Shown in pieces: positions 46,776-53,645 of a stretch of 64,000 nucleotides of DNA. The stretch is from positions 1 to 64,000 of the forward strand of contig NZ_JASAOI010000038.1 of NCBI RefSeq assembly GCF_029953285.1. Direction: 5' to 3'. The DNA comes from Yinghuangia seranimata. Lineage in GTDB: Bacteria; Actinomycetota; Actinomycetes; Streptomycetales; Streptomycetaceae. Within the stretch, counting starts at the first letter, position 1, and the number at the start of each line of letters is the position of its first letter. The translations under genes were made by a program, and so were the position numbers. Under the pieces are notes generated by a model. The model ran no database searches and had not been told where the DNA came from. It saw only the letters and a list, made by a program, of their open reading frames with translations.

Positions 46776-46796
46776 TTGTTGACTTTCAGTCAACAA
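46776..46796. promoter_or_regulatory. Perfect 9-bp inverted repeat TTGTTGACT-N3-AGTCAACAA
   Basis: Half-sites 46776-46784 and 46788-46796. The TTGAC within each arm could also act as a -35 box on either strand. It lies between the saccharopine-dehydrogenase-like gene (minus) and the repeat-containing ORF (plus), and may control both. Confidence 0.6.
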
Positions 46797-46891
46797 GCCG
46801 TGGGTAAGGTGTCCGGACGTTCGCGGAGCGACGGCGCGCAGCACGTCGGCAAAAGACGGAGGACACGTGGACGCCGGGGCCGGAGGGGGAC

Positions 46892-47224
46892 ATGGCACAC
46901 CACGATCAGGTTCGGGCGCGTGCGGCCCAACGTGCGGCACGCGCGGGCGCGCGGCGCGGCCCGCGGGTAGCGTGGCGAAGCTGGCCGGGAGCCGGGAGCC
47001 GGGAGCCGGGAGCCGGGAGCCGGGAGCCGGGAGCCGGGAGCCGGGAGCCGGGAGCCGGGAGCCGGGAGCCGGGAGCCGGGAGCCGGGAGCCGGGAGCCGG
47101 GAGCCGGGAGCCGGGAAGTGCAGTAGCGGACGAAGGCCGGTACCGGGCGGGTGTTAGCGGCGGGTCGACCCCGCGGGCCGGCGTTCGGGCGGCGGCCTGC
47201 GCTCACGGCCGGACCCGCCGGTGA
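46892..47224 (+). CDS. Short ORF containing a 7-bp tandem repeat, overlapping the next gene
   Basis: A 110-residue frame starting at ATG 46892 with an excellent ribosome-binding site (GGAGG five bases upstream). The N-terminal 30 residues are Arg/Ala-rich; residues about 33-80 are heptapeptide repeats GSREPGA encoded by a run of 7-bp units; the end is Arg-rich. The frame ends in GTGA, sharing its stop with the GTG of the GT-B-like gene at 47221. The protein itself looks like low-complexity sequence and may have no function; the frame may matter as a translational leader. Real-gene status is uncertain. Confidence 0.35.
46985..47116 (+). repeat. Tandem 7-bp repeat (CCGGGAG), about 19 copies
   Basis: Eighteen perfect copies of CCGGGAG (46985-47110) followed by a partial CCGGGA. 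The unit length is not a multiple of three, so gain or loss of one copy shifts the reading frame downstream. Confidence 0.98.
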
Positions 47225-48855
47225 GCGGCGACGACTGGATACGCGTCCCGGTCGGCCCCGACGCGGCCGAGCGCCGCACGGTGCGGCCCGACCGGCTGGT
47301 GCTGGCCGCCGTGCGCACCACCACCTGCGCGTACCGGCTGATCGACGACGTCCTGCCGCTCCTCGCCGGGGACCGACGGGTCGAGACGGTCTTCACGGTG
47401 GTGCCGGGTTCGGCGTACGAGGACGCCGTCGCCCCGTTCCTGCGCGCCTGCGGGGCGCGTGTGCTGCCGTGGGAGCAGGCCGTCGCGACGCGGTTCGACC
47501 TGGCGTTGACCGCGAGCGCCAACGGCGACCTGCACCGGCTGGACGCGCCGGTGATCGTCATGCCGCACGGCGCCGGGCACAGCCGGCGGCTGCGCCCGGA
47601 CGACGCCGCGACCGCGTCCGGGCTCGCGGCCGAGCAGCTCACCCACGACGGGCGGGTCGTGCCGAGGACCGTGCTGCTCGGGCACCGCGAGCAGCGGGCC
47701 CGCCTGGAACGGCTGTGTCCCGACGCCGCGCCGCGCGCCGTCGTGGTCGGCGATCCGTGCCTCGACCGTATGCGGGCCGGCGCCATGTGGCGCGACCGGT
47801 ACCGCGCCGCGCTCGGCGTCGGCGACCACCAACGGCTCGTCCTCGTCACCGCGACCTGGGGACCGGGCTCACAGCTGCGCGGACGCCCCGCGCTGGTCGA
47901 CGAACTCCTCGCGGTGCTGCCCGCCGACGACTTCCGGGTGGCGCTCGTCCAGCACCCCAACGTCTGGGAGGGGCACGGCGCGTACTCGTGCACGGGCTGG
48001 CTGACGGCGGCCCGCGAGTCCGGCCTGGTCGTGCTGCCGCCGCGGGACGGGTGGCGGGCCGGCCTCGTCGCGTCCGACCTGGTCGTCGGCGACCACGGCT
48101 CGGTCACGCTGTACGCGGCGGCGCTGGGGCGTCCCGTGCTGCTCGCCGGCTTCGACCCCGGCGAGGTCACCGGCGACAGCCCGATGGCCGAACTCGCCCG
48201 CAAGGCCCCGGTCCTGGCGTCCGGCCCCGGTCTCAGGGAGCACGTCGAGGACGCGCTGCGGAACCCGCCGCCGGTGCGCACGGATTGGTTCGACAATGTC
48301 GACGGCGCTCACGCGGCGCTGCGGACCGTGCTGTACGACGTGCTCGGCCTCGCCGAACCGCCCGGCCCCGCCGCCGTGTACGCGGTCGCCCGGCCGGAGG
48401 CGCGAATCGAGCCGGTTCACACCCACCGGGTGCACGCGCACGTGGAGCCCGGGAGCGGTGTCGTCCGGATCGAGCGCTTCCCTGCGCGGCTCGCCGATCC
48501 GTACGAAGTGGGCGCCGGCCTACGGCACTTGGTCTCGGACGTCGAGGAACCGGTGCTCGGCGCCGTCCAGTCCGCCGACGTCCTGCTGCACCGCGGCCCG
48601 GCGGCACCGGACTGGGCGGCCAGGGCTCTGGCCGACCACCCCGGCGCGCGCTTCGCGGCGGTCGTGGCCCAGGGGTGCGACATCCGCACCCGGGGCGGCG
48701 CGCGGATCGTGGCGCACAGCGAAACGCCGTGTGATCCAACGCTGTTCGCATCGCTGGCGTACGCGCTGACGCTCGGCGGCCGACAGCCGCTCCCGGCCGA
48801 GGCGGTGCTGCACGTCGCGAGCGATCGTGTCCGCGTCGCGTTCACGTCGTACTGA
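47221..48855 (+). CDS. GT-B-like protein of unknown function
   Basis: A 544-residue protein. Two Rossmann-like halves are suggested: the N-terminal half has LVLAAVRTTTCAYRLIDDVLPLL, and the C-terminal half has VLVTATWGPGSQ and LVVGDHGSVTLYAAALGRPVLL (about residues 293-315), like the donor-side 'DHGS' loop of CDP-glycerophosphotransferases or UDP-GlcNAc 2-epimerase-like GT-B proteins. Streptomycete relatives are often just 'hypothetical' (some mislabelled as translation initiation factor). GTG 47221 has no ribosome-binding site of its own and overlaps the stop of a repeat-bearing ORF. A role in wall-polymer synthesis is a guess from the fold. Confidence 0.72.
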   Translation: MSGDDWIRVPVGPDAAERRTVRPDRLVLAAVRTTTCAYRLIDDVLPLLAGDRRVETVFTVVPGSAYEDAVAPFLRACGARVLPWEQAVATRFDLALTASANGDLHRLDAPVIVMPHGAGHSRRLRPDDAATASGLAAEQLTHDGRVVPRTVLLGHREQRARLERLCPDAAPRAVVVGDPCLDRMRAGAMWRDRYRAALGVGDHQRLVLVTATWGPGSQLRGRPALVDELLAVLPADDFRVALVQHPNVWEGHGAYSCTGWLTAARESGLVVLPPRDGWRAGLVASDLVVGDHGSVTLYAAALGRPVLLAGFDPGEVTGDSPMAELARKAPVLASGPGLREHVEDALRNPPPVRTDWFDNVDGAHAALRTVLYDVLGLAEPPGPAAVYAVARPEARIEPVHTHRVHAHVEPGSGVVRIERFPARLADPYEVGAGLRHLVSDVEEPVLGAVQSADVLLHRGPAAPDWAARALADHPGARFAAVVAQGCDIRTRGGARIVAHSETPCDPTLFASLAYALTLGGRQPLPAEAVLHVASDRVRVAFTSY

Positions 48856-48974: not shown

Positions 48975-50186
48975 TCACGCGCGGCGCCGGCGCACCGCGA
49001 ACACAGCGCCGGCACCGGCCGCCGCGAGCGCCGCCGCGCCCGCCACCATGTAGCCGCCCGTGCCGCTGTCGGAGCCGGTCTCGGCGAGGCGCGGGCCCGC
49101 GTCGGGCGTCGACGCTCCGGAGTCGGCCGGGGTCGCGCCGCCGCCCGGAGCCGGGGTCGTCGCGGGCGGGGTGGTCGTGGGGGTTCCGCCCTCGGCCGCG
49201 ATGGTGAGCGGCCCGTGCTCGCCGCAGAATTCCGCGATCGCCCCGTCGGGGCCCGGGCTCACGTCGAGGGCGGCGGACATGACACCCGCGCCGGGCTTGG
49301 CCGCCGCGGCGACCGTCATGCGCAGGCGCTCCTCCGTGCCGGCGTGCGGTGCCAGCTCGAGGAATTTGGGCAGCGTGTTGCTCATCCCGCATCCCCCGGC
49401 GACGTCGCGCGCGACGACCGCCCGCCATTTGCCGCTGTCCGTGCCGTACTCCATGGTCAGCAGCGACTTGTCGTTGCCGCCCGCCAGTTCGAAGCCGAAC
49501 ACGGCCATCATGTCGCGGTATTCGGAGTCCGTCGGGTTGTCGACCTTGACGCGGAACTCCTTGGGCGGGCCGCCGGGGGTGTACGTGCCGGGGAGTCCGA
49601 CCAAAGCGATCGTCGGCGCCCCGAGCCGGACGTCGTCCTGGTCGGTGGCGGCTTCCGTGCCGGGCAGGTCGACCGGGCGGAGCGTCGTCGTGAGCACGAT
49701 CCGCCCGTAGGGGTTGGCCGGGTCCTTGGGCTTGGGCGCCGACGGGTCGAACGTCGCGGTCTTTCCCTTGACCTGTTTGGGGGCGACGCGCAGACGAAGG
49801 GAGAGCGTCTGCGCGTCGGGACCGAGGGCGCGCTTGGGCAGCGTCGCGGTGACGGCGTCGGACCCGGCGGGGGCGACGTCGAGTCGGCGCCACGTGTTGC
49901 CGTCCTGCCAGCTGAGCTGCACGGTGTCGGAGTTCAGGCCGCCGAGCGCGGCGCCGAGGTCGACGCCGGTGAGCTTGACGCCGAGTTCCGCGGTGGCCTG
50001 GCCGCCGCTCGCGGACGCCTTGACGGTGATGGGCGTCGACTCGCCGGCGATGCCCAGCACGGCGGGCGCGGTGGTCTGCACGTGCAGCGCGGGCGCAGCG
50101 TGCGCGGTACCGCTTCCGAGGACGACGAACGCGGGAGCGGTGACGAGAAGTGAGGCCGTCGCGGAGACGGAAAGGGAACGGCGCAA
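48975..50186 (-). CDS. LAETG-type sortase-anchored surface protein
   Basis: About 403 residues. A signal peptide (LRRSLSVSATASLLVTAPAF, cleavage near AHA) starts the protein; the most plausible start is TTG 50186 with GGAG five bases upstream, while GTG 50207 has no clear site. The mature part has Ig-like beta-rich segments (KLTGVDLGAALGGLNSDTVQ; TLRPVDLPGTE), then a Thr/Pro-rich wall-spanning stretch (TPTTTPPATTPAPGGG). The C-terminus carries the sortase-E motif LAETG, a hydrophobic helix (YMVAGAAALAAAGAGAVFAV) and RRRR. It would be linked to peptidoglycan, like long chaplins. Its ligand or role is unknown. Confidence 0.85.
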   Translation of the reverse strand: MRRSLSVSATASLLVTAPAFVVLGSGTAHAAPALHVQTTAPAVLGIAGESTPITVKASASGGQATAELGVKLTGVDLGAALGGLNSDTVQLSWQDGNTWRRLDVAPAGSDAVTATLPKRALGPDAQTLSLRLRVAPKQVKGKTATFDPSAPKPKDPANPYGRIVLTTTLRPVDLPGTEAATDQDDVRLGAPTIALVGLPGTYTPGGPPKEFRVKVDNPTDSEYRDMMAVFGFELAGGNDKSLLTMEYGTDSGKWRAVVARDVAGGCGMSNTLPKFLELAPHAGTEERLRMTVAAAAKPGAGVMSAALDVSPGPDGAIAEFCGEHGPLTIAAEGGTPTTTPPATTPAPGGGATPADSGASTPDAGPRLAETGSDSGTGGYMVAGAAALAAAGAGAVFAVRRRRA

Positions 50187-50749
50187 AGCGAACTCCAAAG
50201 AGCGCACGGGGATTAGGGCACGCCGATTTCGGGCAGCGTGAAAGGCCGCGGGGCATGCCGAATTCGGGGGCGGCAAAGCCTGACCAGGGCCTGCTTCGGC
50301 ATGCTGCCGGGGCAGGAGGAATTCCGCGGAAGCGGCATGCCGGGACGGCATGCGGGTGAGGTCGCGGTGAGGCGAAGAGGCGGCGGGTTACACCGCTACG
50401 GGACGGCCGCGTCGGTCCGGCGGGCCCGGCCGGACCTGCGGCGACGCCGAATACGGCGGCGGGGCACACGCGTGCGGCCGACGGACGTGGGCGGGCACGG
50501 GAGCCCGCGGATGCGCGCGGCACGGGCCGCCGTAGTCGCGGGCGCCACCGGAATCAGGACGTGCGGCGGCGCCAGCCCGCGGGCGGACGCCCACGGCTGA
50601 TGAGTCCAACATGGTTTCCCCCCAATGGTGAACGCTGCGATGTTACATGGGTTTCGCGGCTGGCGTTCACATCGCGCGGGAGGAACTTTCCGGTGCCTCA
50701 TCGGAATCGACCCGGGCGTGATTTCGATTCGGCTCGAAAATGCTTGGCG
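50187..50749. other. Intergenic region with four GGCATGC repeats
   Basis: A 563-bp stretch without a convincing gene. GGCATGC occurs at 50252, 50298, 50334 and 50347 (four copies in about 100 bp), upstream of the LAETG gene. The right part holds only short Arg-rich frames and possibly the leader for nothing else, since both flanking genes run leftward. Confidence 0.5.
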
Positions 50750-53017
50750 TTAGGGCAATTCGGCGAGCCGGCGGAGGGCCTCGGTGGCCTTGGGGCTGCC
50801 CGAGCGGCGGTACGCGTCGGCGAGGCGCATCAAGAAGCCGCGGGCGTCGCTCACGCGGCCGTTCGCCAGGACCAGGCCGACCAACGGCTCCAGCGCGGAC
50901 GCCTCGTCGGCGTACGCGTGGCGGCGCTGCATGACGTCGGCGGCCGCGACGAAGGCGGCCTCCGCCTCGGCGGCGCGGCCGAGGGCGGCGAGCGCGAGCC
51001 CGCGTCCCGTCTCGATGCGACCCACCATGCGCTCGTCCCCCAGCGCATCCGCGGTCGTGCGGGCCTCGTCGAACGCGGCAACCGCCCCGGCCGGATCGCC
51101 CTCGCGAGCCCGGACCTGTGCCAGGTGATAACGCTGGAGCATCGCCCCACGGCGACTGCCGATCTCCTCGTTGACCGCGAGGGAGCGCTCGAACTCACGT
51201 CGTGCTTGCACGAGTTCGCGAGCAGCGACAGCCGGGGCAGCCGCGTGCGCGTGCGCCGCGAGGTGCACCTTGCCGGTGAACTCCCACGCCGACGCGGCCA
51301 GCCGCCGGTCCCCCGCCCCCAGCGCCTCGTCGGCGGCCCCGGCCAGCAGCACCCGCGCGTCGTCCAGGCGACCGAGCTCCACGTACGCGCGCGACAGCTG
51401 GCAGCGCACCCGCACGGCGGCCCGGGCGTCGCCCTCACGCACCGCCGCGTCGATCCCGGCACGGTGCGTGTCGATCCAGTCGCCGTAGTGCGCCCGGTGC
51501 AGGAACAACGCCCAGAGCGGCTCGCACAGGCGCCAGGCGAGGTCGTCCCAACCGCGCTCGACCGAGATCCGGACGCACGCGACCAGGTTGAGCCGCTCGG
51601 CGGCCAGCCACGCCAGCGCGGCCTCCTTGCCCGCGAAGCCGCCGACCGGCGCGACGCCCGCCAGGCGCATGCGGTCGCCCTGCGCCACGTGGTCGGCGGC
51701 CGCGGCACGCCCCAGGTACCACGCGACCGCCCGCCGCGCGGCGGCGTCCGCCTCGGGGTCGCTTCCGACGAGGCCGAGGGCGTGCAACCGCACCAGGTCG
51801 TGGAAGGCGTAGCGGCCCTCGCGGCCCTCCTCCAGGAGGTTCGCACGGCACAACGCGTCGAGCGCGCCGCGCACCGACGCCATCGGATCGCCGGTCAGCG
51901 CACCCACCGCGTCGGACGTGAAGTCGGGCCCGGGATGCAGGGCCAGCAGGCGGTAGGTACGCGCGGCGGACTCGGGCAGCGCGCGGTACGCGGCGTCCCA
52001 GACCGGCTGGACGACGGGCCGGCCGTCGCGCGCGAGGGCCGCCAGCCGGCCGTCCTCGTCCGCGAGTTGCCCGGCCTGCTCGGCGAGACTGCGACCCGGC
52101 CGAACCGCCAGCACCCCGGCGACCGTGCGCACCGCGATCGGCAACCCGCCGCATAGCCGCACCAGTTCGGCGGCCCGTTCGGGCTCGGCGTCGACGCGGT
52201 CGCGCCCGATGAGCCCGGCCAACAACGCGACCCCGTGCTCCACCGCCAACGGGCCCACCGGCAACACGGTGGCGCCGTCGGCGGCGAGTTCCTCCAACCG
52301 CCAGTGGCTCGTCGCCACGACCACACTGTCGGCCGACGCCGGGAGCAGCGCGTCGACCTGCGCGGCGAACGACACGTCGTCGAGCAGCACGCACACCCGC
52401 GAACCCGCCGTCACCGACCGGTACATCGCCGCGCGTTCGGCCGCGCCCGACGGGATCTCCGGGTCCGGGACACCGAGCCCGCGCAAGAACTGGGCCAGCA
52501 CATCCGCGACCTCGACGGTTCCGCCGGGACCGGCGAGCGCACCCAGGTCCGCGTACAACCGCCCGCCCGGGAACCGCTCCTGGACGTCGCGTGCCCACTC
52601 CACGCCGAGAGCACTCTTGCCGACCCCGCCGAACCCGCTGAGCAGCACCACCGGAGCACGGCCCGCGACACCCGAGCGTGCGAGTACCGCCGTCATCGCG
52701 GCGCGTTCACCGTCACGGTCGACGAACCCGACGGCCCCGGGCGGAAGTTGCTCAGGAGCGACACCGCCGATCCCGTCCACCTCGGCCAGCCAGCCGCGCA
52801 CCTCGTCGGCGAACCCGGCGTCCCGGCCGGCCCGTTCGCTCAACGCCTCGGCCACGCCTTGCGCACCCGCACCGGCCGACGACGCCCCGCGCCCGCCCCG
52901 CAGCCGCCCGACGAGCCCGACGAGCGTGGCCCACGCCCCTTTCCCGGCCTCCCCAGCAGCCCCATTGGCGGCCGCCCCCACGGCCCCCGCGATGACCGTC
53001 ATGGAAATCGGATCCAC
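50750..53017 (-). CDS. STAND NTPase (NB-ARC) with TPR repeats and a short N-terminal domain
   Basis: A 755-residue protein. Residues 1-42 form a small Ala/Gly-rich helical domain (MDPISMTVIAGAVGAAANGA) common in actinobacterial STAND proteins. A linker leads to the NB-ARC core: Walker A GFGGVGKSALGVEW (about 125-138), Walker B VCVLLDDV (about 205-212) and the GLPIA motif (CGGLPIAVRTVAGVL, about 288-302). A winged-helix part follows (FHDLVRLHALGLV near 400), then TPR-like helical repeats to the end. There is no SARP DNA-binding domain, so this is not an AfsR-type activator. GTG 53017 is the start. Such proteins act as ligand-triggered signal hubs; some are defence proteins. Confidence 0.87.
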   Translation of the reverse strand: MDPISMTVIAGAVGAAANGAAGEAGKGAWATLVGLVGRLRGGRGASSAGAGAQGVAEALSERAGRDAGFADEVRGWLAEVDGIGGVAPEQLPPGAVGFVDRDGERAAMTAVLARSGVAGRAPVVLLSGFGGVGKSALGVEWARDVQERFPGGRLYADLGALAGPGGTVEVADVLAQFLRGLGVPDPEIPSGAAERAAMYRSVTAGSRVCVLLDDVSFAAQVDALLPASADSVVVATSHWRLEELAADGATVLPVGPLAVEHGVALLAGLIGRDRVDAEPERAAELVRLCGGLPIAVRTVAGVLAVRPGRSLAEQAGQLADEDGRLAALARDGRPVVQPVWDAAYRALPESAARTYRLLALHPGPDFTSDAVGALTGDPMASVRGALDALCRANLLEEGREGRYAFHDLVRLHALGLVGSDPEADAAARRAVAWYLGRAAAADHVAQGDRMRLAGVAPVGGFAGKEAALAWLAAERLNLVACVRISVERGWDDLAWRLCEPLWALFLHRAHYGDWIDTHRAGIDAAVREGDARAAVRVRCQLSRAYVELGRLDDARVLLAGAADEALGAGDRRLAASAWEFTGKVHLAAHAHAAAPAVAARELVQARREFERSLAVNEEIGSRRGAMLQRYHLAQVRAREGDPAGAVAAFDEARTTADALGDERMVGRIETGRGLALAALGRAAEAEAAFVAAADVMQRRHAYADEASALEPLVGLVLANGRVSDARGFLMRLADAYRRSGSPKATEALRRLAELP

Positions 53018-53387: not shown

Positions 53388-53645
53388 CCTGACGACCTCG
53401 CGCAGGCGCCGGCGCAGGCGGCAGGCGATGCCGGGTCCGCGTCGAGAGCGCGTCACGCCGAGGCCCACGCCGCGGCCTGACGACCTCGCGCAGGCGCCGG
53501 CGCAGGCGGCAGGCGATGCCGGGTCCGCGTCGAGAGCGCGTCAGGCCGAGGCCCACGCCGCGGCCTGACGACCTCGCGCAGGCGCAGGCGGTAGGCGATG
53601 CCGGGTCCGCGTCGAGAGCGCGTCACGCCGAGGCCCCACGCCGCG
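53388..53645. repeat. 88-bp tandem repeat, about 2.9 copies
   Basis: Copies start at 53388, 53476 and 53564, each beginning CCTGACGACCTCGCGCAGGCG and containing CGATGCCGGGTCCGCGTCG. Copies 1 and 2 are almost identical; copy 3 has lost 6 bp and carries a one-base insertion near its end. The unit is not a multiple of three and lies outside genes. Confidence 0.95.

Follow-up and report, generated by a model that had tools for sequence, protein, structure and literature searches.

A 7-bp tandem array as a probable translational switch of a TagF-like GT-B gene beside an NB-ARC/TPR gene in actinomycetes

Can the gain or loss of a 7-bp unit decide whether a gene is translated in a multicellular actinomycete? 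The question is raised by a perfect heptamer array that precedes a gene for a protein of the GT-B type in Yinghuangia seranimata. Host-adapted pathogens are the textbook case of repeat-driven phase variation. Here, the repeat switch would operate in multicellular actinomycetes, in a gene family that has no name, and beside NLR-like proteins. The array is probably a translational phase-variation switch of a TagF-like GT-B gene, itself part of a two-gene module of GT-B and NB-ARC/TPR genes. The window is the whole stretch of 64,000 nucleotides that was analyzed.

The array and its leader frame in the window

The array (GCCGGGA)19 lies on the + strand at 46984..47116. Tandem Repeats Finder gave a period of 7, 100% match, 0 indels and 19.0 copies, a number that may be inexact because the assembly is a draft in 113 contigs. 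The preliminary description had counted about 19 copies, and they are indeed exactly 19.0 and all perfect. No other perfect tandem array (period 1-29, at least 20 bp, at least 2.9 copies) is present in the 64 kb, and the unit GCCGGGA forms an array only here in the 9.8-Mb draft genome.

A leader ORF of 110 codons (46892..47224, + strand) spans the array. Its ATG at 46892 is preceded by the ribosome-binding site GGAGGGGG (46882..46889, + strand), and its last codon, TGA, overlaps the GTG at 47221 in the sequence GTGA, where the GT-B gene starts. Ahead of the conserved RVPVG segment, the gene frame has no other ATG, GTG or TTG, and no Shine-Dalgarno sequence stands before this GTG. Only one of the three leader frames gets to the GT-B start. 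The others end 97 and 66 nt upstream, at a TAG in the third frame (47124..47126, + strand) and at a TAG that closes the gene-frame reading of the leader (47155..47157, + strand); measured from the stop end, the distances to GTG 47221 are 95 and 64 bp. The preliminary description is borne out in these respects: the frame from the ATG with its ribosome-binding site through the array to GTGA, the two alternative stops at 47126 and 47157, and a GT-B-like gene that has no ribosome site of its own were all found as it had described them. Read from the sequence, copy number decides whether the GT-B gene frame is reached.

The proposed switch would work as follows. Slippage would add or remove 7-bp units, and every such step would move ribosomes past the array into another frame because 7 is not divisible by 3. 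Ribosomes would start at ATG 46892. With 19 copies (also with 16, 22, and so on), they would terminate at GTGA and re-initiate at GTG 47221, the ON state. With one unit more or fewer, they would end at 47126 or 47157, too far from the GTG, and the gene, lacking its own ribosome site, would be silent (OFF). The GT-B member would be ON in one of three states. In sister clades, arrays within the N-terminal part of the gene or at residue ~125 would have an equal effect. For the window array, we infer both the slippage and the translation of the leader.

The openness of the 110-codon ORF is weak evidence, as it is unremarkable in GC-rich DNA, and the opposite strand also has an ORF through the array, of 138 aa. 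The GTGA overlap could perhaps have arisen by chance, with a probability that is low but far from negligible. An ORF that is unremarkable by itself would suit a neutral microsatellite, i.e., a GC-rich intergenic repeat without effect whose leader ORF is an accident of high GC content, an explanation on which the homologous loci bear (see below). The unit has also invited a structural explanation, in which a G-quadruplex or hairpins of GGGAGCC units, in RNA or DNA, regulate the gene. On the + strand, GGG recurs at 7-nt intervals, a pattern of the G-quadruplex type, and G-rich heptamers of Xanthomonas and Nostoc have been studied for quadruplex formation (PMC4692102). Regulation by secondary structure is nevertheless extremely unlikely here, as the leader RNA does not exceed shuffled sequences in stability (z 0.63) and GGG is missing from many homologous arrays (ACAGGAA, CACCGGA, GATACCG, GCCA).

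Upstream of the leader, a perfect inverted repeat, TTGTTGACT-TTC-AGTCAACAA (46776-46796), separates it from a divergent dehydrogenase gene and is probably an operator. At the loci of this neighboring dehydrogenase gene, no 7-bp arrays were found in 19 genomes.

Arrays, frames and flanking boxes in homologous loci

Of 298 genomes from the same family, about half have a homologue of the GT-B gene, and homologues also occur in other families of the class; 202 homologous loci were taken with their flanks. A short perfect tandem array is present in 86 of the 202, from 300 bp before the gene to about residue 160. From -300 to +480 relative to the gene, 83 arrays have a period of 7, five of 8, three of 5, one of 4 and one of 9, and the sole period-9 array adjoins a 7-bp array. 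The units vary (GCCGGGA, GCCGCGA, CGGACAC, ACGCCGA, CAGCAGG, CACCGGA, ACAGGAA, GAAACCG and others), and their lengths are almost never multiples of 3. Period and position are conserved, unit sequence is not, and frame-keeping unit lengths are avoided, as selection for a frame switch predicts.

The clades were taken from a tree of the GT-B domain. Arrays are confined to three of them, with one site each: the leader, the N-terminus, or residue ~125. In clade N, at whose base the window lies, 16 of 21 members have arrays, at the N-terminus or in a leader. Clade L carries them upstream of the gene (24/25), and clade I always near residue 123-131, directly after the HGxGYNK motif (29/42). Two more clades are array-free, one of long proteins (0/27) and one of short proteins (0/65); in all these counts, members of one clade are not independent observations. 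One genome (G006) carries one array of each site (L023, L069, L105).

This distribution makes neutrality very unlikely. The 83 period-7 arrays all fall in the 157 kb of the start-proximal zone, against 0 in the other 804 kb around the homologues, which holds nine arrays of other periods. Moreover, the array site is fixed per clade, different units occupy the equal site in relatives, and a TANNNT box is conserved beside the arrays. What speaks for a neutral repeat is that imperfect CCGGGAG repeats occur at other intergenic places in relatives, without a GT-B gene, and that a perfect array is missing in 13 of the 42 clade I members.

As for the frames, 22 internal arrays are in frame and 7 out of frame, a ratio biased by the query, an intact protein, which favors in-frame alleles. 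The seven out-of-frame genes keep a downstream half of 1.2-1.4 kb that is still open and conserved, as expected of reversible OFF alleles. Other families of the class show the same array layout and contribute five further out-of-frame cases. Allele comparisons were made between species, with one genome per species. For instance, L232 and L245 are 88% identical over 3.6 kb and share their flanks, and their arrays differ in length by exactly 14 bp (ACAGGAA x7.7, in frame, vs x9.7, out of frame). L233 and L247, 95% identical, are likewise in frame and out of frame, with a 1-bp anchor-to-anchor difference at the array edge. Copy numbers are also unequal in L011/L012 and L199/L227. The N-terminal arrays of L011, L012, L028 and L029 are in frame with an upstream ATG; in L105, L113 and L224, the nearest ATG is out of frame because the gene frame has no start codon before the array. 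The family combines perfect arrays, a period that is not a multiple of 3 and, between species, ON/OFF alleles of close relatives that differ by whole units, which are features of a translational simple-sequence-repeat contingency locus. The relatives thereby lend strong support, through site, period and ON/OFF alleles, to the earlier proposal that a frame-shifting 7-bp repeat sets translation of the GT-B gene.

The leader layout was compared in the window and 22 clade L loci, 23 in all. Between the array and the start codon lie 9-118 nt. In 20 of the 23 (window included), a stop in another frame overlaps the start, usually at +8 in one frame; an overlapping stop is present in 23 of 67 array-free members. 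In most of the 23, a gene-frame stop also precedes the start, by 18-66 nt. The layout noted in the preliminary description, a leader whose stop overlaps the gene start, does recur in clade L. The layout of the window is its own version, since the window belongs to clade N, where arrays are mostly N-terminal. From the local sequence and the analogy with clade L, we infer translational coupling in the window.

Clade L also gives the best ground for a promoter or 5'-UTR rheostat, in which copy number gradually tunes transcription or mRNA stability without any frame logic. In ~20 of 22 loci, the array is preceded at a distance of a few nt by a TTGnnn-N17-TA promoter pair, as in hmw1A, and a GGAGG site of the gene's own is present in part of clade L. 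We consider such tuning unlikely. Nearly all periods avoid multiples of 3, the arrays of clades N and I lie within the ORF with in-frame and frameshifted alleles, and start-overlapping stops recur in clade L itself; a mechanism based on spacing predicts none of the three.

Arrays are accompanied by a -10-like box. In the window, this TANNNT box is TAGCGT (46968..46973, + strand), 10 nt before the array. A TANNNT, mostly TACAAT or TATAAT, lies at most 22 nt before the array in 29/29 clade I cases, and within 22 nt upstream of 12 of 15 N-terminal arrays; the background frequency is 1.7% per 22-nt stretch. In clade I, the box lies inside the coding sequence and is built by the GYNK codons (e.g., L016, L034, L068-L071). 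All 28 array genes with the GYN(K/R) motif encode its Asn by AAT, and 34 of 37 genes without an array use AAC (p about 2e-15, kinship ignored), and the three exceptions with AAT and no array include one assembly gap and one decayed array. AAC is the preferred Asn codon elsewhere in the same clade I genes, and the array-less genes scattered inside clade I carry AAC.

A promoter accounts for the clade L pair. It does not account for the mid-gene boxes, because the usual distance holds no -35 element: the internal TACAAT boxes were considered as classical promoters and rejected, nearly all having no -35 at 16-18 nt. One clade I subclade has a Leu codon TTG 21 nt upstream (TTGRC-N21-TACAAT), an odd spacing for a standard promoter. 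We offer, without proof, the idea that the TANNNT box keeps the adjacent array mutable, for example through RNA polymerase opening or pausing at the box. Frame-breaking arrays with changing units at three fixed sites are natural replicates for studying how repeats arise and persist, and a TACAAT box that accompanies the arrays into coding sequence makes the question of repeat origin directly testable.

Some further observations concern the arrays as such. Between the sister genes L095 and L096, which are 88% identical, a change of unit length has taken place, 7 bp (GCCGGAA) vs 8 bp (CGCCGGAA). Contigs end or carry N runs at arrays (the end of G035:C38 at L010; L150, L254, L093), so draft assemblies will undercount arrays and copy numbers. 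The (GCCGGGA)n repeats found elsewhere in relatives (L072, L074, L076, L077, L081-L083, L085, L086, L091, L104) were considered as a second switched family. This was rejected, as they are mostly imperfect and have no GT-B gene, TACAAT box or NB-ARC relative nearby.

The GT-B protein and its NB-ARC/TPR partner

The target of the proposed switch is a gene on the + strand (47221..48855) for a TagF/TarL-like GT-B protein of 544 aa. Its AlphaFold model (pLDDT 95) has a GT-B fold and an extra C-terminal domain. The best solved fold matches in Foldseek are TarL (8va1, E 7.2e-10) and TagF (3l7j, E 8.5e-10), and VIA-align gives a Z of 20.9 to TagF, tied with UDP-GlcNAc 2-epimerases. Judged by the nearest structures of the model, the protein would be of the TagF/TarL type. 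At a threshold of E 1, PF04464 matches 30 of the 72 family members (best 1.7e-9) but not the window protein, and no GT4 Pfam family is among the matches of the 72. Searches with the window protein in PDB sequences, Pfam, NCBIfam and PADLOC gave nothing significant. Of the candidate catalytic histidines, H116 and H245 are invariant, and H292 is nearly so.

On the opposite strand, at 50750..53017, lies a gene for an NB-ARC/TPR protein (STAND, NLR-like) of 755 aa. It has an NB-ARC match with E 1.1e-7 and is a homologue of the convergent partner of relatives, to which it is about 32-40% identical. Indeed, a convergent downstream NB-ARC/TPR gene is present in 78 of the 87 members of clades N (19/21), L (22/24) and I (37/42) with enough flank, in 55 of 92 members of the array-free clades, and in 0 of 30 control loci. 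In relatives (L258-L263), the NB-ARC/TPR gene is convergent with the GT-B gene, often tail-to-tail with overlapping ends (L259, L258, L262). In the window, one gene separates the two. It encodes an LAETG/LPXTG sortase-anchored surface protein (48975..50351, - strand) that was not seen between the GT-B and NB-ARC genes of the relatives checked. From gene order and homology, GT-B and NB-ARC/TPR appear to be a conserved two-gene module.

Modules of different clades can be paired side by side (L258, L259, L260 and L261, also L130/L153 in G303). Each usually has its own array and unit, so that several switches can exist in a single genome independently of each other. In the window, an 88-bp sequence is present in three tandem copies (94% alike) at 53388-53645, upstream of the NB-ARC gene.

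The one pointer to a defense or conflict role of the module is the NB-ARC partner. The PADLOC defense models gave no match for the NB-ARC protein, and a defense-system label for it was set aside for this reason. The GT-B protein may modify a surface polymer, or it may be an effector restrained by the NB-ARC protein. A wider reading is possible, though doubtful: the module may be an undescribed, widespread, phase-variable NLR-like conflict system of actinomycetes, made of a TagF-like GT-B protein and an NB-ARC/TPR receptor, in which the TANNNT box would act as a DNA signal that keeps the array mutable and steers array birth and slippage to fixed gene sites, even mid-ORF.

Comparison with known systems

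Outside subscription papers, no report was found in the literature of heptamer phase variation in Actinomadura or its relatives, and none of this GT-B gene family. The nearest proteins by fold are the wall teichoic acid polymerases TagF and TarL (PF04464; 3l7j, 8va1), which gave the best fold matches. The window protein is only 11-14% identical to them and has the extra C-terminal domain. Moreover, no teichoic-acid genes were noticed beside the window gene, which has a convergent NB-ARC partner instead.

A comparable array is that of neuO in Escherichia coli K1, a perfect heptamer array (AAGACTC) in the 5' coding region, with full-length protein in only one of three frames, as in the N-terminal and internal clades here (PMC13001214). 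NeuO, an O-acetyltransferase encoded on a prophage, modifies a polymer of the cell surface and has an effect on phage survival (PMC13001214); here, a GT-B gene of actinomycetes is concerned. Furthermore, the units described here differ between species, the arrays occupy three sites, and the window array lies in a separate leader ORF.

The main rival mechanism, by analogy, would be that of hmw1A/hmw2A in Haemophilus influenzae. There, heptamers (ATCTTTC) that share sequence with the -10 box form part of the 5' UTR (PMC8262952), and the clade L arrays have a similar place at the transcript's 5' end. In contrast to the frame switch proposed here, the effect of the Haemophilus heptamers on transcript level is gradual and without frame logic (PMC8262952), and the gene is unrelated.

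The accessible part of one account describes STAND NTPase systems with GT4 effectors, in which a glycosyltransferase-like protein is likewise linked to a STAND/AP-ATPase in multicellular bacteria, and which are predicted to be counter-invader or conflict systems (PMC8195603). In that part, the GT4 domains are mostly fused to STAND or in an operon with it, and a repeat switch is not mentioned (PMC8195603). The present module differs in its TagF-like GT-B protein, its separate convergent genes and its repeat switch.

Finally, the preliminary description held that such a phase-variation layout is rarely noted in streptomycetes; it missed that phase variation is on record in Streptomyces. The Pgl system of Streptomyces coelicolor is a phase-variable actinomycete phage defense whose methyltransferase gene, pglX, contains a frameshifting repeat, a homopolymer G tract, and encodes a potentially toxic product (PMC4365076). 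Kinship with Pgl is not claimed. If the module described here is a defense or conflict system, the switch would account for how the mycelium confines a costly or self-damaging activity to a part of itself.
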